Origin: Mesobacillus jeotgali
GTDB lineage: Bacteria > Bacillota > Bacilli > Bacillales > Cytobacillaceae
Direction of reading: 5' to 3'
DNA length: 64,000 nt
Assembly (NCBI RefSeq): GCF_900166585.1
Contig: NZ_FVZC01000008.1
Span: 620,001-684,000 of the forward strand
Every line of letters begins with the position of its first letter. Positions within the stretch are counted from its first letter, which is position 1. Of the stretch, positions 21,565-62,728 are shown piece by piece. The notes below the pieces were generated by a model that made no database searches, was not told where the DNA came from, and was given only the letters and a program-made list of their open reading frames with translations. The position numbers and the translations under genes were made by a program.

Positions 21565-22026
21565 ATGAGTGATAAATTAATAAAGGATTTGGTTGATCAC
21601 TATATCGATGTTTCCTTTTCGGTCAATAAGGTTGCAGAGGGGATGATCAAGGAAGAAATTGGGTCTGACCTGACGAATGATCAGCATTATACATTGCGTT
21701 ATATCAACAAGGTAGGCTCTTGTACATCATCCGAGCTGGCTGAGGTTTTTGATGTCAAAAAAAGTGCCATAACAGCCATTATTACAAGGTTATGGGAAAA
21801 GGGGCTCATCCAGAGAACAAGGGATGAACATGACCGTCGTCTGGTCTATCTGGCTTTGACGGATAAAGGAAATGAACTATTCCAGAGGACAGAGGAGCGG
21901 ATTCATGCACTGGTAGAATCGATTATAACAAGATTCGATCAGGATGATATCATCCAGTTCTTAAAGGTATACGACAAGTTGAATGAAATTTTAACAGAAA
22001 GAAAGAGTAGGGTGGAATCATCATGA
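21565..22026 (+). CDS. MarR-family transcriptional regulator (YdgG-like)
   Basis: The protein has 153 residues with a winged-helix core: LTNDQHYTLRYINKVGSCTSSELAEVFDVKKSAITAIITRLWEKGLI, with the wing RTRDEHDRRLVYLALTDKGNE (the DxR signature of MarR). It overlaps the MMPL transporter gene by ATGA (22023-22026), so it very likely controls that transporter and itself. B. subtilis ydgG-ydgH has the same pairing. GAGGTG precedes the start. Confidence 0.9.
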   Translation: MSDKLIKDLVDHYIDVSFSVNKVAEGMIKEEIGSDLTNDQHYTLRYINKVGSCTSSELAEVFDVKKSAITAIITRLWEKGLIQRTRDEHDRRLVYLALTDKGNELFQRTEERIHALVESIITRFDQDDIIQFLKVYDKLNEILTERKSRVESS

Positions 22027-25000
22027 AATTCATTATAAAGCAAAAATGGTTTGTCATTATTGCATGGATACTTGTAGCTGCAGGCTTGTTCATGGCTGCA
22101 CCAAATATGGCAGAACTTGTGAGGGAAAAGGGACAAATTACTGTGCCTGACGAATACTCCTCGACGCTGGCCGGCAAAATTATGGATGAAGTCAGGGAGC
22201 AGGAAGGAGGAGGCGATGAAACCCAGGTCGCACTCGTCTTCCATAGCGAAAAAAAGTTGACGGAAGAAGAAATCAAGGAAGCGGAAACAGCAATCCGTAA
22301 GCTTGAAGATAATAGGGAGAAAATCGGGATTACCGATATCCTGACACACTTCAATGAGGAGAGCCTTAAGGAACAGCTTGTTTCAGATGATGGTAAGTCA
22401 ATCCTGACATCTGTGACAGTCAGCTGGAACGATCGTGAACCAAGTGAAATAAGGCAACTGCTTTATGAAACCATTGAAGACGTAAAAGTAGACCACTATT
22501 ACACGAGCCAGTGGCTGATCAATGAGGATCTGATGACCAGCTCAGAAGAAGGCTTGAAAAAAACAGAGGGAATCACGGTTGTTTTTATTCTTGTTGTTCT
22601 CCTTCTAGTGTTCAGGTCGGTCATCGCTCCGGTCATTCCGCTGCTGACAGTCGGTATGGCATACCTTGTGTCACAGTCGATCGTAGCAGTGCTCGTTGAT
22701 CAATTCAATTTCCCGCTTTCAAACTATACGCAGATTTTCCTTGTTGCCGTATTGTTCGGAATCGGAACGGATTACTGTATTTTACTGCTCAGCCGCTTTA
22801 AGGAAGAGCTGGCACATCATGAAACTGTTGGGGCGGCAATTGTCGCGACTTATAAAAATGCAGGGCGCACCGTATTTTTCAGCGGTGTAGCCGTTATGAT
22901 CGGCTTCGCCGCAATTGGATTCTCACAATTCATTTTATACCAGTCCGCTGCTGCCGTAGCGATTGGTGTAGCCATGCTTTTGCTGGGATTATTTACTATT
23001 GTCCCGTTCTTCATGGCGGTATTAGGACAAAAGATTTTCTGGCCTTCAAAGCAAAGCGCGGAGCATGGTGAAAGCAAGTTATGGGGAACAGTCGGAAGAT
23101 TCTCACTGGCACGACCATTCCTGAGCCTGCTGATTGTCGCTGCAGTTTGCGTACCGTTCCTGATTGCTTACGACGGAGACCTTAGCTATAACTCGCTGGA
23201 TGAAATCAGCGGAGATGTAAACTCCATTAGGGCCTTCAACGCTATTGCCGACAGCTTCGGCCCAGGCGAATCCATGCCGACTCAGGTCATTTTGAAAAAT
23301 GACGAGAGAATGGACTCAGCAGAATACATTGAATTAGCTGAAAAAATCAGCACCGAGCTTGAAAAAGTAGACCTGGTTGACACGGTCCGATCAGTCACCA
23401 GGCCAACAGGAGAGCCAATTGAAGACTTCTTCGTTTCCAAACAGGCCGAAACACTAGGTTCAGGACTTGGAGAAGGAAAAGAAGGGCTAGATAAAATCAG
23501 CGAAGGACTTAACGAGGCTGAAACTGAATTGTCAAAGTCCGCTCCAGAATTGGAGGGAGCAGCTGACGGCATCAATGAGCTTATTAATGGAACAACCGCA
23601 ATCAAGTCCGGCCTTGGGGAAATCCAGACGAACCTTGCAAAAATCGAGGACGGCATCCGCCAGGGCTCTGCGGGCTCCGATCAGATTCAGGCGGGGCTGG
23701 CAGAAGCGAAGACTGGAGCTGAGGAGTTGCTCGCCGGGTATAAACAGCTGCAATCCAAGTATGTGGAGATGCAGGCAGGCCTGGCGCAGCTTGAGGCTGG
23801 TTATAAAGAGGCTGGTAATGGCTTATCAGGGTTATCAGCTGGAATATCACAGGCACAACTATCATTATTTAACCACTTAGAAAACAGCTACGATGTAGAA
23901 AGTGATGGAAAGTATCAGGAGCTAAAATTAACCCTTGCAAAATATCAGGAGGGGCTAGCTCAAACATCCACTGGAATAAACCAATTAAACCAGAAGCTTC
24001 CGTTGATTACCGGCGGCATGGCCCAGGCAAACGAAGCCTTTGCAGGAGCACTGGCCCAGCAGGCTAAGTTCAGCCCAGGGCTCGAACAGCTCATCAACGG
24101 AATCGAGAAACAGCAGGCAGGGCTTAATCAGCTTGCTGACGGCCAGGGGCAAATTGTTGATAATTTCCCTAAGCTGACAAATGGATTAACAGGAATCAAC
24201 GCAGGCCAGCAGCAGCTTTTGGCTGGCTTTGGCGGACTGGGGACACAGCTGAACCAGCTCACAGACGGACTCAGCCAGAGCACCGATGGTTTGAATCAGG
24301 TGTCTGAAGGCCTTGGCTCGGCTCAGGAATATCTCGATGGCCTGGCAAGCTCAGATTCCAATGGTTTCTACCTGCCGGAGGATGTACTGGAAAGCGAGGA
24401 CTTCGCACAGGTATTTGATGTCTATTTTTCAGAAGACCGCAAAGTCATGACGATGGATGTCATTTTTGAAGCAAATCCTTACTCTAACAAGGCGATGGCA
24501 CAGATTCCAGAACTCAAAGATGCAGTGGATCGCGCTACGAAAGGAACAAAGCTGGAAAACGCCGATGTAGCCATTGGCGGGATCACGAGCACGAATGCCG
24601 ACCTTGACACGATGTCCGGCCAGGATTATTCCCGTACTGTGATTCTGATGCTGCTGGGGATTGGCATCATCCTTGTATTCTTGTTCCGTTCGATAATCAT
24701 GCCAATCTACATTATTGGTTCATTAATTCTAACGTACTATACTTCAATGGCGGTCAACGAAGTCATCTTTGTTGATATCCTTGGATACACAGGCATCAGC
24801 TGGGCGGTTCCATTCTTCGCCTTTGTCATCCTGGTTGCCCTTGGTGTCGACTACAGTATCTTCCTGATGGACCGTTTCAATGAATATAAGGACCTGTCAA
24901 TCTCGGAAGCCATGCTGCTTTCGATGAAAAAGATGGGGACGGTCATTATCTCGGCTGCCGTCATTCTTGGCGGAACTTTTGCTGCGATGATGCCTTCCGG

Positions 25001-25139
25001 AATGATGTCATTGCTGCAGATTGCATCGATTCTCCTCGTAGGATTGTTCCTGTACGCATTCATCATGCTGCCGCTGTTCATCCCGGTATTGGTGAAGAAC
25101 TTTGGTGAAGCAAACTGGTGGCCGTTTAAAAGAGTATAA
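22023..25139 (+). CDS. MMPL-family transporter (YdgH-like)
   Basis: The protein has 1038 residues, an RND-superfamily exporter with 12 membrane segments. Helix 1 (11-30) is followed by an extracellular domain, then a bundle at 180-370 with GIGTDYCILLLSRFKEEL (the GxxxDY proton-relay motif). A second bundle at about 855-1030 has ALGVDYSIFLMDRFNEY. Between them (about 480-800) lies a long extracellular coiled coil of repeated G-L-x-x-L-x-x-G units (IQAGLAEAKTG, GINQLNQKL, QLTDGLSQSTDG), typical of the longer Firmicutes members. The cargo is probably lipid or drug. Co-regulated with the overlapping MarR gene. Confidence 0.93.
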   Translation: MKFIIKQKWFVIIAWILVAAGLFMAAPNMAELVREKGQITVPDEYSSTLAGKIMDEVREQEGGGDETQVALVFHSEKKLTEEEIKEAETAIRKLEDNREKIGITDILTHFNEESLKEQLVSDDGKSILTSVTVSWNDREPSEIRQLLYETIEDVKVDHYYTSQWLINEDLMTSSEEGLKKTEGITVVFILVVLLLVFRSVIAPVIPLLTVGMAYLVSQSIVAVLVDQFNFPLSNYTQIFLVAVLFGIGTDYCILLLSRFKEELAHHETVGAAIVATYKNAGRTVFFSGVAVMIGFAAIGFSQFILYQSAAAVAIGVAMLLLGLFTIVPFFMAVLGQKIFWPSKQSAEHGESKLWGTVGRFSLARPFLSLLIVAAVCVPFLIAYDGDLSYNSLDEISGDVNSIRAFNAIADSFGPGESMPTQVILKNDERMDSAEYIELAEKISTELEKVDLVDTVRSVTRPTGEPIEDFFVSKQAETLGSGLGEGKEGLDKISEGLNEAETELSKSAPELEGAADGINELINGTTAIKSGLGEIQTNLAKIEDGIRQGSAGSDQIQAGLAEAKTGAEELLAGYKQLQSKYVEMQAGLAQLEAGYKEAGNGLSGLSAGISQAQLSLFNHLENSYDVESDGKYQELKLTLAKYQEGLAQTSTGINQLNQKLPLITGGMAQANEAFAGALAQQAKFSPGLEQLINGIEKQQAGLNQLADGQGQIVDNFPKLTNGLTGINAGQQQLLAGFGGLGTQLNQLTDGLSQSTDGLNQVSEGLGSAQEYLDGLASSDSNGFYLPEDVLESEDFAQVFDVYFSEDRKVMTMDVIFEANPYSNKAMAQIPELKDAVDRATKGTKLENADVAIGGITSTNADLDTMSGQDYSRTVILMLLGIGIILVFLFRSIIMPIYIIGSLILTYYTSMAVNEVIFVDILGYTGISWAVPFFAFVILVALGVDYSIFLMDRFNEYKDLSISEAMLLSMKKMGTVIISAAVILGGTFAAMMPSGMMSLLQIASILLVGLFLYAFIMLPLFIPVLVKNFGEANWWPFKRV

Positions 25140-25144
25140 TTAAT

Positions 25145-25176
25145 AAGAGGCAGCCATTTGGCTGCCTCTTTTTTTA
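25145..25176. terminator. Bidirectional terminator after the MMPL gene
   Basis: The stem AAGAGGCAGCCA/TGGCTGCCTCTT is followed by a T run; the convergent DsbA-like gene ends inside it. Confidence 0.88.
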
Positions 25177-25806
25177 ACAACCATCCACTCCGCATGACAT
25201 CCCTTCATCCGGGTCATCCATTTGTGAAAGGATGATTTGCTCCAATGCCTTTTTTGACCTCATCCCTGGAACCACCCGGTCTCCGACAATGAAAGTTGGA
25301 ACGGCAGTGATGTCCACCTCATTATAAGCATGGTTCAAAGCTTGTTGATGTGCTTTTTTATACTGCCTTGTTTCCAGCGCATGGCGATATTTATCCTGAT
25401 CAAGACCAACTTCACCAGCAAGCAATGTTAAAACCTCGACATCCCCGATATCTAACCCTCTCTGGAAAAATGCCCTGAGCATATGGTCATTGTACTCATT
25501 TCCTTTTCCTTTTTCCTTCGCAAACTGGTAGCCCTCAAATGCAAGATGCGTATATGGCTGGGGAGACACATCCGGAAGGACAATCTCTACTCCCATCCGC
25601 TCGGCCATAGGATAAACCGATTGCTCCCAAGTGCTTTGCAAATAATGTTCTTCAGGCTTCAGCGTTTTGTTTGGATATGGCCTTAATTCAAAAGGCATCC
25701 ATTCCAACTCGACATCCTTCCCCTTAATGGCTTCCTTCAGCGGAAACTCCGCCAAAAAGCAAAACGGTCAAACATAATCAGAATATATTTTGATTTTGAG
25801 TGTCAT
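25174..25806 (-). CDS. FrnE/DsbA-family oxidoreductase with in-frame TGA at the active-site Cys (candidate selenoprotein, UPFC)
   Basis: Reading from ATG 25806 (AAGGAGG 5 bases before) gives MTLKIKIYSDYV, then TGA (25770-25768), then PFCFLAEFPLKEAI in the same frame to a stop at 25174; 210 codons including TGA. The family start is normally SDYVCPFC or SDxVCPWC, so TGA replaces exactly the first Cys of the CxxC redox motif. The remaining domain is intact: an inserted helical region with YTHLAFEGYQFAKE, the cis-Pro loop TAVPTFIVGDRVVPG, and a C-terminal CGVDGC. It is very likely a thiol-disulfide oxidoreductase with Sec in place of Cys. Ordinary gene calling would start at 25755 and lose the active site. 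An alternative is a nonsense mutation. Confidence 0.85.
25740..25752 (-). promoter_or_regulatory. Candidate bacterial SECIS hairpin for the FrnE-like gene
   Basis: On the minus strand GCGGA-GTT-TCCGC forms a 5-bp stem with a loop that begins with G. The loop G is 21 bases after the TGA, within the roughly 16-37 base window of bacterial SECIS elements. The stem is short, so this is supportive rather than decisive. Confidence 0.55.
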
Positions 25807-26024
25807 GATTTCCTCCTTAAAAATAGTAACGATAATAGGTTTCGTTTGAATTTTACCTTTATGCACCAAGGTTAAACTTGAAGTGAACATTTCATTGCTA
25901 AAAATCAGGCTAAACCATATGATGGAAATATCATACTTCAAAGGGGATAGAATATTGCGTACATATAAATTGGTTTTTTCATATGAAGAGGTGAAATTTT
26001 TATAAAAGAATGGGAGACTAAAAA

Positions 26025-27452: not shown

Positions 27453-28784
27453 TTACTCAGATGCCGGATTCAATTCTTTTGCAGATATAAACTTATCGAA
27501 TACCCATCCAGCGAGGCCGCCGATCAAAGCTGGCAGAAGCCAGCCCAGTCCTTCAGCATAAAGCGGAAGCGATTGAAGCAGGGCCATAAGTGCTTCTGAT
27601 TCAACGCCAAATGTTTTCAGTCCATCCACAACACTGACCATTCCAGCTGCCAGAACAGCTCCAACATAGACTCCTCGTGCACCTTTGAAAAAACGGTCCA
27701 GGAAGGAAAGGATGACAAGGACAATCGTTATTGGATAAAGCACAATCAATACTGGTACTGAGATAGAGATAATCTGGTTCAGGCCAAGGTTTGAAATCAA
27801 TAAGCTGACCAATGTCACGGCTAATGTGAAAGTTTTATAAGAAACGTTTGGTATCATCTTGTTGAAGAATTGACTAGTTGCCGCAACAAGACCCACAGCT
27901 GTTGTGAAACAGGCAAGCGTTACAATCAAACCCAAAAGCAGCATTCCCGGTACACCAAAAATCAACTCGGCAGCTGCCGTTAAAATTTCACCGCCATTTT
28001 CGAATTGGCTGCCTGAAGCCATTTTAGCTCCAAGCAATCCCACTGTTACATAGACAAAAGACAAACCGACCCCAGCAATGATGCCTGCCTTTAATGTTTC
28101 TCTTACAACCATCCTGCGCTCCAACGCTTTTTTCTGCTGGACAGCTCCAACTACTATAATTCCGAAGGCGAGTGCTGCGATCGTATCCATGGTTAGGTAC
28201 CCCTCCAGGAATCCGGTAGCAAACGGTGCATTCGTATACTTTGCTGAAACCTCTCCAAATGACCCCTCAAGCTTGAAAACGCTTCCGAGTACCAGCAGAA
28301 GAATCGCAGCCAGCATAACAGGCGTTAAAATACTTCCAATCCGTTCCACCATTTTTGACGGATTCAATGTCACCCAGTATACAAGAGCAAAAAACACAAC
28401 AGTGAACAATAAAAGAAACGCAGTATGTGAGCCGCCTTCTGCCAAAAATGGCTTAAGGGACATTTCAAAAGCAACGTTCGCACTTCTCGGGATTCCAAAG
28501 AATGGCCCAATCGACAGGTATACCGCTGCGCTGAAAACAACCGCAAAAACAGGATGTACCCTTGAACCAATTTCTTTAACACCATCCTTCGCCATTGAAA
28601 TGACAACGACAGTCAATAGAGGCAGGCCAACTCCAGTTACAATGAAACCAAGCATTGCAGGCCAAAAATTCGCTCCTGCTTCCTGCCCTAAAAATGGCGG
28701 GAAAATTAGATTCCCTGCTCCAAAAAACAATGCAAATAACATCAGACCGATTGTGAGTGTTTCTTTACCCTTTAAGCTTCCCAT
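27453..28784 (-). CDS. brnQ: Branched-chain amino acid transport protein BrnQ
   Basis: From ATG 28784 the protein has about 443 residues and 12 predicted membrane helices. Typical blocks are FALFFGAGNLIFPPFLGQEAG near the start, VTGVGLPLLTVVVISMA, IGPFFGIPRSANVAFEMS and LACFTTAVGLVAATSQFF. It carries Ile, Leu and Val into the cell with Na+ or H+. I chose ATG 28784 because AGGAGG sits 9 bases upstream; the in-frame start at 28817 lacks one. It is preceded on the same strand by a T-box leader, so transcription is expected to rise when the cognate branched-chain tRNA is uncharged. Confidence 0.95.
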   Translation of the reverse strand: MGSLKGKETLTIGLMLFALFFGAGNLIFPPFLGQEAGANFWPAMLGFIVTGVGLPLLTVVVISMAKDGVKEIGSRVHPVFAVVFSAAVYLSIGPFFGIPRSANVAFEMSLKPFLAEGGSHTAFLLLFTVVFFALVYWVTLNPSKMVERIGSILTPVMLAAILLLVLGSVFKLEGSFGEVSAKYTNAPFATGFLEGYLTMDTIAALAFGIIVVGAVQQKKALERRMVVRETLKAGIIAGVGLSFVYVTVGLLGAKMASGSQFENGGEILTAAAELIFGVPGMLLLGLIVTLACFTTAVGLVAATSQFFNKMIPNVSYKTFTLAVTLVSLLISNLGLNQIISISVPVLIVLYPITIVLVILSFLDRFFKGARGVYVGAVLAAGMVSVVDGLKTFGVESEALMALLQSLPLYAEGLGWLLPALIGGLAGWVFDKFISAKELNPASE

Positions 28785-28861
28785 CCTTAATCTCCTCCTA
28801 ATATAATGTTTTGGCACTGAGAGTATAGGAATTTCAGAACGGATTATTATATAATCAAAAA

Positions 28862-29115
28862 TAAAAACCCGCCCCCTAAAAACTAGGGACGAGTTATGCT
28901 CGCGTTACCACCCTGATTCCGCAAAAACATGCGGCCCTCATCAACGTACCATCATACGTGTTCCCTTTAACGGCGGACACCCGGCAAAAGCTTACTGCTG
29001 TTAAGGTTCAGCTAAGCATCTCAGAGATGATATCCCTCTATAACCTGAACACCGGCTTGCAGCTAATCACCGGCTCTCTTTGGATCAGTTCCATAAAGGA
29101 CGTGTTCTCGTCATC
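28862..29115 (-). promoter_or_regulatory. T-box riboswitch of brnQ
   Basis: The T-box core AGGGTGGTAACGCGAG (minus strand, 28914-28899) is followed by a terminator stem (CTCGTCCCTAG / TAGGGGGCGGG) with a T run. About 190 bases 5' of the T-box form the Stem I region, including GAGAGCCGG/CCGGTG complementary blocks. The layout is standard for T-box leaders. The specifier codon is probably within GGGATATCATCTC (an Ile ATC codon is present), but I cannot fix it without a fold. Confidence 0.92.
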
Positions 29116-29415
29116 GATTTTATTATTTTGAAATATATTTACTTGAACTATAATAATATTCAGATAATAAAATGTCAATACTATTTCCTAAGGAAAATTT
29201 TTTATTAAAAATTCGATCACCTAAAGGATTCCATTTAATGGACAAATTGCGGCCAGGTATGATTCGAAATGTATAAGAAGAGCTGTTACTAGACATTTTA
29301 GTGGGTGCCAAGCTCAGAAATCTCTATTAAAATCTTTGATAATAAAATATATTATTCATAATATGACAATCCGTATTAAAATTGGGATATATAAGTCAGA
29401 AAATGGAGAAATGCC

Positions 29416-37271: not shown

Positions 37272-38477
37272 ATGGAGAAAAACATGTCGGAGAGAAGGTT
37301 CCTTGTCTTAGTCATTGCGGCAATCATGCTGTTTATGCTGATTCATCTTTATCACGGGGACCTTTCAGCTTATTTGAATCCTGAAAAATATATCGCCATT
37401 CATATCATTTTGGAACTTTTCAGTATAATTGTTTCCTTTTCGATTTTTTCCTATGGATGGAAAACCTTTGGCTTTACTCAGTCCAGAAAAACCCTGATGC
37501 TGGCTTTCTTGTTTTTCAGTGTTGGAGTTCTTGATGTTTTACACACGCTTACTTTTAAAGGAATGCCTTTTTTTATCACCGACAGCTCGATTGCAAAGGC
37601 AACATGGTTTTGGGTCACAGCCAGGACGATTGAGTCATTGATGATGGTGCTTGTCCTAATTTCGCCCGAATACAAGCTGACACTCGATCCTAGGCGAGTC
37701 TGCCTGGCTTCGTGTACCGTGCTTCTCGCTGTCATCATGTATGTGATTTTTAAGTATGAACAAAGTCTGCCGCTGCTTGTCATTGAGGGAGAAGGAACAA
37801 CTGTTTTAAAAAATGTCATTGAATATGGTGTCAGTTTCCTCCATTTTATTTCGATCGTGATTTCACTATATTTTTACTACGAGGGGAAAAATGGCCAACA
37901 TCTGTATGTGGCGCTGGCGTTTACATTTTTACTCCTGTCCGAGCTCGTTTTTACCATCTACCAGAGCGTTTATGACATTGACAATTTTACAGGCCATCTA
38001 TACAAAGCAATTGGTTACTTCTTCATCATGAGAGGATTTTACTTCTCGACAATTGCCAACGACAGCCTGCTGAAAGATTCTCGTGAAAAAGTATGGTCCC
38101 AAACAGAAGAGATGATCCAGAGTCACTATGGAATCCTTTTTAGACTGGCAAAACAGGGAAATAACTACATCCATCAAATTGTCGGAGGCGGTTTGCTGGA
38201 TGATCTCGGCTTCACCATGAATGAAATCAACGGCAAGACCCTGGGAGATTTTTTACCTGAAAAGGCTGCTGGAATCGAGAAGTATTATGAATGTGCCTGG
38301 AAAAATAATGAGAAGATCGTCTTTGAAATCGAAATTGGCGGGAGTACCTATGCCATTTCACTTATGCCAGTTTTGAAAAACGGGGAAGTTGTCGAGATTG
38401 CTGGGGCAGTTATGGGAATCGTCAAGTATTCACGGTTGGACCGCTGTTCAAGAAGTACAAAGGCAAGTGCCTTGTGA
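37272..38477 (+). CDS. MASE3 membrane sensor with a degenerate PAS domain and no output domain
   Basis: The protein has 401 residues. Residues 9-265 hold seven or eight hydrophobic segments of MASE3 type (LELFSIIVSFSIFSYGWKTFGF, FFSVGVLDVLHTLTFKGMPFF, WFWVTARTIESLMMVLVL, GHLYKAIGYFFIMRGFYF). Residues about 285-390 look like one PAS domain (EEMIQSHYGILFRLAKQG, FTMNEINGKTLGDFLPEKAA, AISLMPVLKNGEVVEIAGAV). In relatives a GGDEF or histidine kinase follows, but here the protein ends in RCSRSTKASAL and a terminator. It may be truncated or may signal by partner contact. Confidence 0.78.
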   Translation: MEKNMSERRFLVLVIAAIMLFMLIHLYHGDLSAYLNPEKYIAIHIILELFSIIVSFSIFSYGWKTFGFTQSRKTLMLAFLFFSVGVLDVLHTLTFKGMPFFITDSSIAKATWFWVTARTIESLMMVLVLISPEYKLTLDPRRVCLASCTVLLAVIMYVIFKYEQSLPLLVIEGEGTTVLKNVIEYGVSFLHFISIVISLYFYYEGKNGQHLYVALAFTFLLLSELVFTIYQSVYDIDNFTGHLYKAIGYFFIMRGFYFSTIANDSLLKDSREKVWSQTEEMIQSHYGILFRLAKQGNNYIHQIVGGGLLDDLGFTMNEINGKTLGDFLPEKAAGIEKYYECAWKNNEKIVFEIEIGGSTYAISLMPVLKNGEVVEIAGAVMGIVKYSRLDRCSRSTKASAL

Positions 38478-47638: not shown

Positions 47639-47723
47639 TACTCCGGGCAGTATTATGTATTTCTCGGCCATTTCATGATAAACTAAACACTACTCATATT
47701 TGATGCAGAAAGGAAACGAAAGA

Positions 47724-47999
47724 ATGCAGATTTCAGATAAAGCGCGCGACATTTTAAAAGAAATCCTCGCTGAGCGCAATGCAAATGGTATCCGTGTCTA
47801 CTTTGGCGGCTTTGGCTGAGGAGGACCTCAGGTTGGTCTGGCTCTGGAGGAGCCGGAAGAAGAAGATCATGTAACGGTAATAAATGAAATCCAGGTAGCA
47901 ATTGAGTCCAATATCGTCGAGTATACAGAAGGTATGTCACTTGAATATGACGAGTACCGTGAAGGCCTGGTCCTGATGGGCGGCGACGGCGGCTGCTGA
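47724..47999 (+). CDS. HesB-like protein with in-frame TGA (candidate selenoprotein)
   Basis: ATG 47724 opens MQISDKARDILKEILAERNA and runs GIRVYFGGFG, then TGA at 47817-47819 (codon 32), then GGPQVGLALEEPEEEDH in the same frame, ending GLVLMGGDGGC with TGA stop at 47997; 91 codons including TGA. HesB/IscA-like proteins have FxGFGCGGP here, so TGA replaces the conserved Cys; this family is known to contain natural selenoproteins. Identity before and after the TGA is one continuous domain and both halves are intact. The role is unclear (thiol or metal binding). AAAGGAAA precedes the start, and a terminator follows. Nonsense mutation is the alternative. Confidence 0.88.
47840..47854 (+). promoter_or_regulatory. 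Candidate bacterial SECIS hairpin for the HesB-like gene
   Basis: GGCTC-TGGAG-GAGCC is a 5-bp G/C-rich stem with loop TGGAG. The two loop Gs lie 27-28 bases after the TGA, within the usual bacterial SECIS distance. An alternative hairpin GACC-TCAGGTT-GGTC lies at 47824-47838. Confidence 0.6.
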
Positions 48000-48037
48000 T
48001 AAATACACACAACTGTGTGGATTGCCTGAAATGAAAA

Positions 48038-48110: not shown

Positions 48111-48230
48111 TCGCTATAAAAAATAAAAATTCGCTATAAAAAGTATAAAGTCGCTATAAAAAGAAAAAATTCGCTATAAAAAATAAAAACTCGCTATAAA
48201 ACCAAGATTTTCGCTATAAAAAATTTCAGA
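48111..48230. repeat. Tandem array, 20-bp unit, six copies
   Basis: TCGCTATAAA starts at 48111, 48131, 48151, 48171, 48191 and 48211: an exact 20-bp period with A-rich variable halves. It lies between the convergent HesB-like gene and uppP and touches the uppP stop. Confidence 0.9.
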
Positions 48231-49008
48231 ACTGGCCGCTATACTGAAAATACAACACAACAAGGCCGATTAACCACACATAAATCGCAAAAGGTTTCAA
48301 TGAATTCTTTTTTAGATAGCCAATCATCCATTTTACAGCGATGTAACCAAATATCGCAGCTGAAATGATGCCAATCAGCAATGCCTGAAGTGAAATGGTT
48401 TCGCTGCCGCTGGTGAAAAGGTCTTTTCCTTGCAACACGATTGCGCCAAGGATTGCAGGTGTCGAAAGCAGAAAAGAGAAGTAGGCTGCTGTTTCTCGGT
48501 CGAGTTTTCGCCAAAGTGCAGCGACAATGGTCAGGCCTGAGCGCGAAATCGCCGGAAATATAGCTGCGGCCTGGAAGCTCCCGATAACCAGGGCATCAGT
48601 ATAGCTGATGTCTTCCATCTTCTTGCGGCCATCTTTAATCGAATCCGCGAACCACATTAACGTTCCGGTAATCAGGAATTCCCAGCCAATCGTAACTCCC
48701 GTCTTGGATATTTCATCAAAATAATCCTCAAACAGCAATCCGACAACCACAGCGGGAAGTGTGCCGACAACAAGCAGGAAGGTCAGTTTGCCGAATGGGT
48801 CTTTCAAAATCTTGATAAATTCATTTCTGTAAAACACAAACACTGCAAGCAGTGTTCCGACATGGAGCATGGTGTCGAGCAGCAGGCCTGCTTCCTCGAG
48901 TCCAAACAGGTTCCTGCCGAGATAAAGATGCCCAGTCGAACTGATCGGCAAGAACTCGGTCAGTCCCTGAATCAGCCCTAGAATGAAAGCTTCAATTTTA
49001 GATAGCAT
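48226..49008 (-). CDS. uppP: Undecaprenyl-diphosphatase UppP (BacA)
   Basis: The protein has 260 residues with about eight helices. The active-site blocks are present: LGLIQGLTEFLPISSTGHL (Glu and Ser motif), FQAAAIFPAISRSGLTIVAAL (the SGxxR-like PAISRSG motif) and the His in GTLLAVF-preceding MLHVGT. It dephosphorylates undecaprenyl-PP to recycle the wall lipid carrier and gives bacitracin resistance. It is a single gene. Confidence 0.95.
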   Translation of the reverse strand: MLSKIEAFILGLIQGLTEFLPISSTGHLYLGRNLFGLEEAGLLLDTMLHVGTLLAVFVFYRNEFIKILKDPFGKLTFLLVVGTLPAVVVGLLFEDYFDEISKTGVTIGWEFLITGTLMWFADSIKDGRKKMEDISYTDALVIGSFQAAAIFPAISRSGLTIVAALWRKLDRETAAYFSFLLSTPAILGAIVLQGKDLFTSGSETISLQALLIGIISAAIFGYIAVKWMIGYLKKNSLKPFAIYVWLIGLVVLYFQYSGQF

Positions 49009-57389: not shown

Positions 57390-58394
57390 ATGCTTGTGAA
57401 AACCAATGGGCAAAGATGGATCGGGTTAATGGCGGCCATCTTATTAATTTTATTTTTAATATCCGCAAGTATCGTCTATGGCTATACAGATACATCATGG
57501 GACACAGCTTTTGCTGCTTTCACCAACTATGATGGTTCGAATGAACATATTATCATTCAATCCGTCCGGCTGCCGCGCGCTCTGATTGCAGCTGCTGTCG
57601 GTGCCAGCCTGGCGATTGCCGGTGTCCTGATGCAAACATTGACGAAAAACCCGCTTGCTTCACCAGGAATTTTTGGCGTCAATGCCGGAGCTGGATTCGC
57701 TGTGGTAGTAGCTGTGACGATGTTTTCAGTCAGCAGTCTTCAGGCATTTGCATGGATATCCTTTTTTGGTGCTGCACTGGCGGCTCTAAGCGTCTATGTG
57801 ATTGGTTCTGCTGGCCGTGAAGGTTTGACTCCGATGAAGTTGACACTTGCAGGGGCAGCGATGTCAGCGATGTTTTCATCCTTCACTCAGGGTTTGCTCG
57901 TACTCGATGAAGCAGCGCTGGAACAGGTTCTCTACTGGCTTGCGGGCTCTGTCCAGGGGCGCAGGCTGGAAACTCTCATCAGCGTCCTGCCTTATTTAGC
58001 ATTTGGCTGGCTGGCAGCAATCCTTATTTCCTCAAAAATGAACGTTTTATCAATGGGTGAGGATGTAGCAAAGGGGCTTGGTTTGAATACAGGTCTTGTA
58101 AAGCTTGCTGCAGGCGTGATCATTGTTCTTCTATCTGGCGGAGCTGTTGCGGTAGCAGGACCTATTGGATTTATAGGAATTGTCATTCCCCACTTGACAA
58201 GGGCGGTGGTCGGCATTGATCACCGCTGGGTGATACCTTTCTCGGCGCTATTTGGAGGAATGCTGTTATTGGCGGCGGATATCGCTGCCCGATACGTATT
58301 GATGCCGCAGGAAATTCCTGTGGGTGTCATGACGGCGATGATTGGGACTCCATTTTTCATTTATATAGCGAGAAAGGGGTTCAATGGAAAATGA
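57390..58394 (+). CDS. yfiZ: Siderophore ABC transporter permease (FecCD family, YfiZ-like)
   Basis: The protein has 334 residues and about nine or ten helices. SVRLPRALIAAAVGASLAIAGVLMQTLTKNPLASPGIFGVNAGAG-type opening (seen as VRLPRALIAAAVGASLAI and KNPLASPGIFGVNAGAG) and PIGFIGIVIPHLTRAVVGIDHR (coupling helix for the ATPase) are typical. It forms a heterodimeric channel with the next gene. ATG 57390 follows GAAAGG. Overlaps the next gene by ATGA. Confidence 0.92.
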   Translation: MLVKTNGQRWIGLMAAILLILFLISASIVYGYTDTSWDTAFAAFTNYDGSNEHIIIQSVRLPRALIAAAVGASLAIAGVLMQTLTKNPLASPGIFGVNAGAGFAVVVAVTMFSVSSLQAFAWISFFGAALAALSVYVIGSAGREGLTPMKLTLAGAAMSAMFSSFTQGLLVLDEAALEQVLYWLAGSVQGRRLETLISVLPYLAFGWLAAILISSKMNVLSMGEDVAKGLGLNTGLVKLAAGVIIVLLSGGAVAVAGPIGFIGIVIPHLTRAVVGIDHRWVIPFSALFGGMLLLAADIAARYVLMPQEIPVGVMTAMIGTPFFIYIARKGFNGK

Positions 58395-59470: not shown

Positions 59471-60292
59471 ATGAACCATGCAATTGAAACGGAAAAACTG
59501 ACGCTATCATATGGAGATTCCATTATCATAAATGAATTAGACATAAAGATTCCCAAGGGAGAAATCACCGTTTTTATTGGAGGCAACGGCTGCGGAAAAT
59601 CGACTTTGCTGCGCTCGATTGCCAGGCTGCTTAAACCCCAGGCGGGATCCATCCTGCTTGAAGGCGAGGCAATCTCAAGGCTTTCAACCAAACAGGTAGC
59701 CCGTAAAATGGCGATTCTGCCCCAATCTCCTGCAGCACCGGAGGGTTTGACAGTACTGCAGCTTGTCAAACAGGGCAGGTACCCTTACCAGACCTGGCTG
59801 AAGCAATGGTCGGTAGAGGATGAAAAAAGTGTGGAGAATGCTTTGAAGGCCACAGGCATAGAACATCTGAAGGACCGGACAGTTGACTCATTGTCTGGCG
59901 GACAGCGTCAGCGTGCATGGATCGCGATGACCCTGGCACAGGATACAGATATTATCCTCCTTGATGAGCCGACAACCTATCTGGACATGACTCATCAAAT
60001 TGAAATCCTGGATTTGCTTTATGAATTGAATGAAAATGAGGGCAGAACGATTGTCATGGTTTTACATGACCTGAATCTTGCCTGCAGATATGCTCATAAT
60101 ATCGTTGCAATCAAGGATCAGAAGATCTTTGATCAGGGAAAGCCGGAAGTCGTCATTAACTGTGGGCTTGTGAAGCATGTCTTTGGAATGGATTGTGAAG
60201 TGACGATCGACCCGCTATTCGGCACACCGCTGTGCATTCCGCACGGCAAAGGGCGCCGAATCCTTAAGGATAAAATGGGAGTCTTAACATGA
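59471..60292 (+). CDS. yusV: Siderophore ABC transporter ATP-binding protein (YusV-like)
   Basis: The protein has 273 residues: Walker A GGNGCGKSTLLR, signature LSGGQRQRAWIAM, Walker B IILLDEPTTYLD and the switch in VMVLHDLNLACRYAH. It has the Fe-siderophore (FepC) subfamily features (PKGEITVFIGGNG, LSTKQVARKMAILPQ). It energises the two permeases. In B. subtilis YusV serves several siderophore systems; here it is in the operon. AAAGGGG lies before ATG 59471. Confidence 0.93.
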   Translation: MNHAIETEKLTLSYGDSIIINELDIKIPKGEITVFIGGNGCGKSTLLRSIARLLKPQAGSILLEGEAISRLSTKQVARKMAILPQSPAAPEGLTVLQLVKQGRYPYQTWLKQWSVEDEKSVENALKATGIEHLKDRTVDSLSGGQRQRAWIAMTLAQDTDIILLDEPTTYLDMTHQIEILDLLYELNENEGRTIVMVLHDLNLACRYAHNIVAIKDQKIFDQGKPEVVINCGLVKHVFGMDCEVTIDPLFGTPLCIPHGKGRRILKDKMGVLT

Positions 60293-61047
60293 AATCCGAA
60301 CTGACAGGCAATGAAATTGCGACTCTCGCCAACTATCGATTTGCCGTTTCTGAACCTGAAAAGGAGGTCCAAATCGATTTCACACCTTTCACAGATGAAG
60401 CGACAATGGGCGTTTATCTGGAAAGGTTCAATGAAGGGTTGAACGCTCCGGATGCCAAAACAGCAGCATCTGTGTTTATGAAACGTCATGCTTTTCTCGC
60501 TGTCCTCTACTTATATTCAATGACCGCTTTTAACAAAAGGCTGGATGTTTCACCTGGAAATATTATTCTTGCGGATTCCATAAAGGATGGTCTTTGGCTG
60601 CCGGAGTTTTATCTGAAGAGCAAAAATACCGATGTCTGTCCGGATGGGCATCGAGATACATGGAGGACGGAAGCGGTCAGGCACTTATTCATGGATAATC
60701 TGTCTCCTGTTATAGACGCCATCTCTAAATCTGCGAGAATCTCGAAATTGATTTTATGGGAAAATGTTGCAGTCTATATGTTTTGGCTATATGAAAAGAT
60801 TCTGAGCGAAACCGATGATCCAGATGTCAAAATAAGGGCGGCGGAGGATTTTTCTTTTCTGGTCGAATCAGCACCCGGTAAACTATTCGGAAAGTACCAT
60901 AAGAACCCAATTACCCGATTTTACCGCGAACCGGTTTATCAAGAAGAAACCGATTCTTTTATCAGAATCCGGAAAACCTGCTGTTACAGCTATAGGCTGA
61001 AAGAAAAAGGCAGTTACTGCAAAACATGCCCACGAACATGTGGATGA
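60289..61047 (+). CDS. FhuF-like ferric siderophore reductase
   Basis: The protein has 252 residues and ends CCYSYRLKEKGSYCKTCPRTCG. The Cys pattern CC-x10-C-x2-C is that of FhuF-type [2Fe-2S] siderophore reductases. The N-terminal 200 residues are alpha-helical and resemble the C-terminal domain of IucA/IucC-like proteins (FMKRHAFLAVLYLYSMTAFNK, WENVAVYMFWLYEKIL). It reduces iron bound to the siderophore in the cytoplasm to release it. It overlaps yusV by ATGA (60289-60292). Confidence 0.85.
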   Translation: MKSELTGNEIATLANYRFAVSEPEKEVQIDFTPFTDEATMGVYLERFNEGLNAPDAKTAASVFMKRHAFLAVLYLYSMTAFNKRLDVSPGNIILADSIKDGLWLPEFYLKSKNTDVCPDGHRDTWRTEAVRHLFMDNLSPVIDAISKSARISKLILWENVAVYMFWLYEKILSETDDPDVKIRAAEDFSFLVESAPGKLFGKYHKNPITRFYREPVYQEETDSFIRIRKTCCYSYRLKEKGSYCKTCPRTCG

Positions 61048-61500: not shown

Positions 61501-62728
61501 ATGTGCCCTAAAAACGGAGGAAGCGAAGAGTTCGGTAACAAGTAAGGGGAACATGTGCCCTAAAAACGGAGGAAGCGAAGAGATCGGTAACAAGTAAAGG
61601 GAACATGTGCCCCAAAACCAGAGGAAGCGAAGAGTTCGGTAACAATAAGGGGAACATGTGCCCCAAAAGCGGAGGAATCGAAAAGTTCGGTAACAAGTAA
61701 GGGGAACATGTGCCCCAAAAGCGGAGGAATCGAAAAGTTCGGTAACAAGTAAGGGGAACATGTGCCCGAAAAGTGGTGGAAGCGAAGAGTTCGGTAACAA
61801 GTAAGGGGTACATGTGCCCCAAAACCAGAGGAAGCGAAGAGTTCGGTAACAAGTAAGGGGAACATGTGCCCCAAAACCAGAGGAAGCGAAGAGTTCGGTA
61901 ACAAGTAAGGGGAACATGTGCCCGAAAAACGGAGGAATCGAAGAGTTCGGTAACAAGTAAGGGGAACATGTGCCCGAAAAGTGGAGGAAGCGAAGAGTTC
62001 GGTAACAGGTAAGGGGAACATGTGCCCGAAAAGCGGAGGAAGCAAAGAGTTCGGTAACAAGTAAAGGAAACATGTGCCCGAAAAACGGAGGAAGCAAAGA
62101 GTTCGGTAACAAGTAAAGGGAACATGTGCCCGAAAAGTGGTGGAATCGAAGAGTTCGGTAATAAGTAAGGGGAATATGTGCCCCAAAACCAGAGGAAGCG
62201 AAGAGTTCGGTAACAAGTAAGGGGAACATGTGCCCGAAAAGCGGAGGAAGCAAAGAGTTCGGTAACAAGTAAAGGGAACATGTGCCCGAAAAACGGAGGA
62301 ATCGAAGAGTTCGGTAACAAGTAAGGGGAACATGTGCCCCAAAACCAGAGGAATCGAAGAGTTCGGTAACAAGTAAGGGGTACATATGCCCGAAAAGCGG
62401 TGGAAGCAAAGAATTCGGTAACAAGTAAGGGGAACATGTGCCCCAAAACCAGAGGAATCGAAAAGTTCGGTAACAAGTAAGGGGAACATGTGCCCGAAAA
62501 GCGGAGGAAGCAAAGAATTCGGTAACAAGTAAGGGGAACATGTGCCCGAAAACCAGAGGAATCGAAAAGTTCGGTAACAAGTAAGGGGAACATGTGCCCC
62601 ATAACCAGAGGAATCGAAGAGTTCGGTAACAAGTAAAGAGAAGATGTGCCCGAAAAGCGGAGGAAGCGAAGAGGCCGGTAACAAGTAAGAGGAAAATGCT
62701 CTCGAATAGCGGAGGCGCAGTAACAGAA
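61501..62728. repeat. Large tandem array, 52-bp unit, about 23 copies
   Basis: The unit, starting at CCC, is CCCnAAAAnCnGAGGAAnCG, then AAGAGTTCGGTAACAAGTAA and GGGGAACATGTG, 52 bases. Copies are more than 85% alike. One copy (61610-61659) has a 2-base deletion. Variants recur in a mosaic: CCCCAAAACCAGAGG, CCCGAAAAGCGGAGG, CCCGAAAAACGGAGG and CCCGAAAAGTGGTGG types. On the minus strand no unit has a stop in any frame, so three long frames (374 to 419 codons) run through it, all spurious-looking. The copies decay at the right end (62680-62728). It lies between the convergent yusU and coat genes. Confidence 0.93.

Follow-up and report, generated by a model that had tools for sequence, protein, structure and literature searches.

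At this locus of Mesobacillus jeotgali, the gene for a FrnE/DsbA-like oxidoreductase has an in-frame TGA where its relatives have the first cysteine of the CxxC active site. Has the codon ended the gene and cost the cell an enzyme, or is it read as selenocysteine (Sec)? We took up this question in the surrounding 64,000 nucleotides of DNA (the window), in the rest of the genome, and in related genomes.

Reading frame across the TGA codon

On the minus strand of the window, the frame runs from ATG 25806 through a single TGA (25768-25770) and is thereafter open until TAA 25176-25174. Direct reading confirmed what had been claimed from the DNA: an SDYV-TGA-PFC frame with one TGA, exactly at the first active-site Cys, and intact on both sides of it. 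With U13 the product has 210 aa, beginning MTLKIKIYSDYV-U-PFCFLAEF.... The residues preceding position 13 and the PFC following it are conserved in relatives, and Cys occupies position 13 in all 33 database matches aligned.

Ordinary annotation was expected to start at 25755 and miss the active site, and this is what happens. The standard-code ORF begins at TTG 25755, inside the hairpin described below and past the active site; the resulting 193-aa form (P0003) is present among public predictions at 99% identity. Protein database matches numbered 2320; within the best 120, those of at least 83% identity are 174–193 aa long and lack the active site, while matches spanning the whole query start at 76% identity. 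Features of the locus and the other TGA genes discussed below are collected in Table 1. The stem of the terminator-like hairpin is the same on both strands (shuffles: mean 1.0, sd 1.1).

Table 1. Positions of the FrnE-type gene, its elements and related TGA genes (window positions unless a contig or locus is given)
Feature	Position	Strand	Details and basis
FrnE/DsbA-like gene, predicted selenoprotein	25174..25806	-	210 aa with Sec13, UPFC active site; frame reading, Pfam DSBA, fold match
TGA codon, predicted selenocysteine 13 in place of first CxxC Cys	25768..25770	-	Frame reading and codons of relatives
SECIS-like hairpin GGCGGA-GTT-TCCGCT	25739..25753	-	Loop GTT 25747-25745, loop G 25747; comparison of relatives
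Shine-Dalgarno-like AAGGAGG	25812..25818	-	Upstream of ATG 25806; direct reading
C-terminal CX4C (Cys205, Cys210), as in Deinococcus FrnE	25177..25194	-	Translation and literature (PMC8945050)
Terminator-like hairpin	25145..25170	.	Between FrnE-type gene and convergent transporter gene 22023-25139
HesB/IscA-like TGA gene, FGUGGPQVGLALEEP	47700..48002	+	TGA 47817-47819; start TTG 47700, ATG 47703 or ATG 47724
Second FrnE-like gene (P0002, 227 aa)	G000:C7:674442-675122 (L046:1501-2181)		TGA at first Cys, TDFA-U-PFC; own hairpin

Selenocysteine machinery and other TGA genes

A bacterial selenoprotein calls for a genome that encodes tRNA-Sec, SelA, SelB and SelD. The search of the rest of the genome (4.63 Mb, 9 contigs) that had been proposed as a check found all of them: a tRNA-Sec with anticodon TCA (56.1 bits; cut-off 47), and selA (560.3 bits), selB (363.6) and selD (399.2), each above its curated cut-off. 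The selD frame has its own in-frame TGA (TKAG-U-GCK), as does a gene for a formate dehydrogenase alpha subunit, FdhA (DGCNRT-U-HAPS). In-frame TGAs also occur in a HesB-like gene and a second FrnE-like gene of the genome, and loop-G hairpins also lie downstream of the TGA in fdhA, selD and these two. Across the family, selA was above its cut-off in 172 of 193 genomes.

The original prediction pointed to a second such gene 22 kb away. There is indeed a TGA gene at that place, but it is HesB/IscA-like and not a second FrnE. Its best-scoring model, the HesB-like selenoprotein TIGR01911, gave 61.0 with the TGA entered as Cys, just under the cut-off of 66.35; this is a family different from FrnE. 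The gene ends in TGC-TGA-TAA, the last codon before TAA being another TGA; because the fold downstream of it is weak (-7.4 kcal/mol), this terminal TGA is probably a stop.

The second FrnE-like protein of the genome (P0002) is 31% identical to the FrnE-type protein of the window and is the closer of the two to Deinococcus FrnE (178.6 bits). Among 20 loci of its gene in the genus (L032-L051), the codon is TGA in 19 and Cys in one (L045). No NCBIfam model was above cut-off for P0002, which had three weak matches.

Active-site codons among relatives

Of 179 relatives that a scan of named genomes turned up, we read the codon in the best 80. At the first active-site Cys it was TGA in 7, TGT in 44 and TGC in 29, so that an in-frame TGA aligns with the Cys codon of homologs; the 7:73 ratio is no frequency, because one of the six search patterns was a Cys-coded active site, favouring Cys types. 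The second active-site Cys was encoded by TGC or TGT in all 80. Five of the seven TGA loci (L052-L055, L060) have protein rows identical to those of same-genus genomes, among them Mesobacillus selenatarsenatis SF-1 (L054) and M. subterraneus DSM 13966 (L055), identical to G007 and G018. The remaining two are from Cytobacillus oceanisediminis 15_TX (L098) and a Planctomycetia MAG (L115).

Within the genus, ten of the 21 genomes, counting that of the window, have a close ortholog (at least 75% identity), and in each of the ten it holds one internal TGA. The family search took in 193 genomes, the genus among them, and counted as close orthologs those with at least 54% identity over at least 190 aligned residues. 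Twenty-two genomes have a close ortholog holding one internal TGA, which by reading is at the active site in 19; G098, G099 and the second G029 copy fall outside that reading. A stop-free close ortholog occurs in 14 genomes. G029 (C39, C43) is counted in both classes, having a stop-free copy at 71% identity plus a TGA-containing copy at 56%. Left out of these counts were G128, a fragment that does not include the site, G047, whose alignment begins only at residue 61, and G049, which has 50% identity and one TAA. In all, 20 distinct proteins, among them the one in the window, have TGA as the first-Cys codon, and the second Cys codon is intact in every locus read. A sequencing error behind the TGA is unlikely, since many separately assembled genomes carry it.

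The original prediction expected orthologs to alternate, with Cys in species that lack Sec and TGA in those that use it. One half of this stood: all TGA orthologs were in selA-bearing genomes, 7 of 7 named and 22 of 22 in the family, the latter with E of at most 1.5e-163. The other half did not, and the alternation is one-sided, because many Cys-type genomes also carry selA. Among the 50 of the 80 named genomes tested, selA was above cut-off in 31, including 24 of the 43 with Cys (one-sided Fisher P 0.026 against the TGA genomes, without regard to kinship); it was also found in 13 of the 14 family genomes with a stop-free ortholog (exception G172). Twenty-one family genomes had no selA above cut-off: 10 are among the listed rows of the ortholog search, 2 had no match and 9 had only unlisted rows. 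The listed ones showed one TGA, in the FrnE-like paralog of G179, an 81% complete genome. These sequences indicate that TGA orthologs go with selA, yet selA does not force TGA.

A hairpin that goes with the TGA

The loop G of the SECIS-like hairpin had been placed 21 bases downstream and, counting on from the TGA, base 21 is indeed this G. The fold energy of the window's hairpin does not stand out (z -1.36), being matched by 24 of 200 shuffles. Because its free energy alone is weak, the case for Sec rests on the contrast between TGA and Cys relatives. It is this comparison, energy alone not being significant, that reveals what is expected of a selenoprotein gene, a hairpin just 3' of the TGA with a G in a small apical loop.

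Removing 14 duplicates from 110 rows left 20 Sec and 76 Cys rows, all distinct. In these we scored pairing between positions 18-23 and 27-32, which were fixed and numbered from the TGA. All six pairs form in 19 of the 20 Sec rows and five in the other one. None of the 76 Cys rows has six; they have five pairs in 8, four in 31, three in 23, two in 10 and one in 4. The loop G is present in 20/20 Sec rows versus 14/76 Cys rows. Covariation is no test of the hairpin, because its pairs hardly vary.

The comparison extends to codons and to the protein itself. The stem codons GCG, GAG and CCG all occur in every one of the 20 Sec rows, and in 15, 13 and 36, respectively, of the 76 Cys rows. With amino acids fixed and the codon usage of 25 window ORFs, synonymous choice alone would produce the full hairpin with P 0.005 in the window; in six other rows P ranges from 0.0005 to 0.005. 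At residue 21 all 20 Sec rows have Phe (10), Ala (6) or Val (4). Of the 76 Cys rows, 10 have one of these (Val 7, Ala 3), and the others have Lys (26), Gln (22), Gly (10), Glu (6), Asn (1) or Asp (1).

Alternative explanations

Were the TGA a true stop, the locus would be a pseudogene, its enzyme lost to a nonsense mutation. This agrees with a frame that is broken under the standard code and a remainder that has no active site, but not with the recurrence of the TGA at one codon of 20 distinct proteins whose frames are otherwise intact, nor with selA in each tested TGA genome, named or family. The hairpin that goes with the TGA and the Shine-Dalgarno-like site ahead of the full-length start also speak against decay, and we give it almost no credence. 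Equally poor is the prospect of a 193-aa protein started at the TTG and serving some other use without a CxxC. A mechanical ORF does begin there, and database entries of that length exist for close relatives; however, the TTG sits inside the hairpin, AAGGAGG is positioned for ATG 25806, and the conservation on both sides of position 13 covers residues that such a protein would not include.

Some basal UGA read-through occurs generally, and the codon might be decoded as another amino acid, or passed by general read-through, with no part played by Sec. Our analysis found no point in support of this. TGA ends other ORFs of the window (four long ones were checked: 48226-49008, 57390-58394, 37272-38477 and 60289-61047), and the genome has a complete Sec gene set and other Sec-type genes, which makes such decoding very unlikely. 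All three alternatives were rejected. The reading of the TGA as selenocysteine, as originally proposed, is supported by the Sec gene set of the genome, the codons of orthologs and the TGA-associated hairpin; judged from sequence, the FrnE-type locus is very probably a functional selenoprotein gene.

Protein family and proposed mechanism

Pfam, sequence and predicted fold agree on a DsbA-fold protein closest to FrnE. Pfam DSBA matches at 95.4 bits (cut-off 25.6), and a PDB sequence search with E up to 0.001 returned only FrnE of Deinococcus radiodurans (E 6.6e-16). An AlphaFold2 model in which Cys stood in for Sec (built from 34 sequences; mean pLDDT 85.7) had as its top structural matches five Deinococcus FrnE entries, with E of 3.9e-13 to 2.3e-12. 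For the FrnE-type protein (P0001) no NCBIfam model was above cut-off, the only match being NF041057 at 22.3 bits against a cut-off of 190.

A C-terminal CX4C is found in many, though not all, FrnE proteins, and here it is CGVDGC at residues 205-210. D. radiodurans FrnE (5cnw, 5co3, 5coh, 5cp1, 5xwh), the best match in both sequence and fold, shares this motif and the N-terminal CPxC; it differs in having Cys rather than Sec, in its 27-29% structural-match identity, and in its chain of 260 residues versus 210. A review (PMC8945050) places its CX2C at 22-25 and its CX4C at 239-244, and Sec13/Cys16 and Cys205/Cys210 match these motifs by position. In DTT-grown crystals, according to this review, one molecule places its tail at the active site of a second, with a Cys22-Cys244 disulfide between them, and the tail was proposed to regenerate the active site. 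The tail of our model is of low confidence, with pLDDT below 50 at residues 201-205 and 207-210. Among relatives, 14 of the 20 Sec rows have CX4C within the last 22 residues, where 6 show none; the 76 Cys rows have CX4C in 36, CX5C in 25 and neither in 15.

We propose that SelB and Sec-tRNA(UCA) would bind the hairpin and insert Sec13, giving the UPFC active site. Sec13 would attack a substrate disulfide, Cys16 would resolve it, and the CX4C tail may help regenerate the active site. The protein has Cys or Sec only at residues 13, 16, 205 and 210 (UxxC and CX4C), which suggests a Sec13-Cys210 step in regeneration, perhaps by way of an intermolecular selenenylsulfide matching the Cys22-Cys244 bond of the Deinococcus crystals. 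The Sec13-Cys210/CX4C relay is plausible. The enzyme itself is likely to act in the cytoplasm as a disulfide reductase/isomerase that defends against redox stress, a role reported for Deinococcus FrnE. Tentatively, and as a possible rather than a probable picture, we combine three elements: a FrnE-type Sec13 recycled by the protein's own CX4C tail through an intermolecular selenenylsulfide, its coexistence in one Bacillaceae cell with the FrnE-like selenoprotein P0002 (31% identical), and a recoding hairpin that shaped the protein itself at residue 21.

Evolution and neighbourhood

We placed the 20 Sec and 76 Cys rows on a quick tree, with weak support for 39 of its 93 inner branches. The Sec/Cys label changes 3 times, compared with a mean of 18.4 on shuffling, and none of 500 shuffles was as low; the well-supported branches force only one change. 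Three changes are compatible with one Sec origin or with several. The copy on L115, a contig of 64.7% GC labelled as a Planctomycetia MAG, has the TGA and the same hairpin, and its genome has selA; it may reflect either horizontal transfer or a binning error. In a plasmid collection 226 records match, one of them at 60-80% identity.

Within a flank of about 1.5 kb, an MMPL-type transporter gene and a GNAT-type or BrnQ-type gene, names that we assigned by reading, are kept in 9 of 10 genus copies. These neighbours were not found in the same flank of G011 or of copies outside the genus (L098, L115, L143-L151). In the window, gene 27453-28817 is presumably a BrnQ-type branched-chain amino acid transporter, as we read it, and upstream of it is a T-box leader (28882-29123, minus strand, 116.2 bits). 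A tandem array at 61501-62715 (52-base unit, 23.4 copies, 89% matches) has long open frames in three phases and is probably not coding.

Relation to known selenoproteins

In what follows we take COG2761 to be the FrnE group. Selenoproteins of this general kind are in print: a Sargasso Sea study of 2005 described a 'DsbA-like protein' with 9 sequences, COG2761, the motif UXXC and a SECIS (PMC1088965). One paper gives the DsbA-like selenoprotein 45 genes in 41 organisms and reports that aerobes use Sec as well (PMC5029168), another has a 'DsbA-like protein form 1' with PF01323 and UxxC (PMC13188914), and three selenoproteins were counted in Bacillales in 2006 (PMC1794560). As far as the accessible text of PMC1088965, PMC5029168 and PMC13188914 goes, their proteins and ours have in common a DSBA protein, Sec in place of the first Cys of the CxxC motif and, 3' of it, a bacterial SECIS whose loop has a G; the same text does not name FrnE, the C-terminal CX4C or this Bacillaceae group, and the likeness is one of description (for PMC1088965, the COG2761 number and the UXXC motif). 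With DsbA-like COG2761 UXXC selenoproteins already published (PMC1088965), the kind is known and the novelty is limited. In the accessible portions of published selenoprotein surveys we did not find this Bacillaceae clade or the pairing of UxxC with CX4C named, and among papers that a literature search on selenoproteins and FrnE found, none was on a bacterial FrnE, judging by titles and the beginnings of abstracts; a further search found no paper linking Mesobacillus with selenocysteine.

The locus adds a well-supported predicted selenoprotein to a Bacillaceae group where selA is common. With its Sec/Cys split and shared hairpin, the family is well suited to the question of why Sec takes the place of Cys, and through the CX4C tail a Sec-Cys relay can be put to the test.
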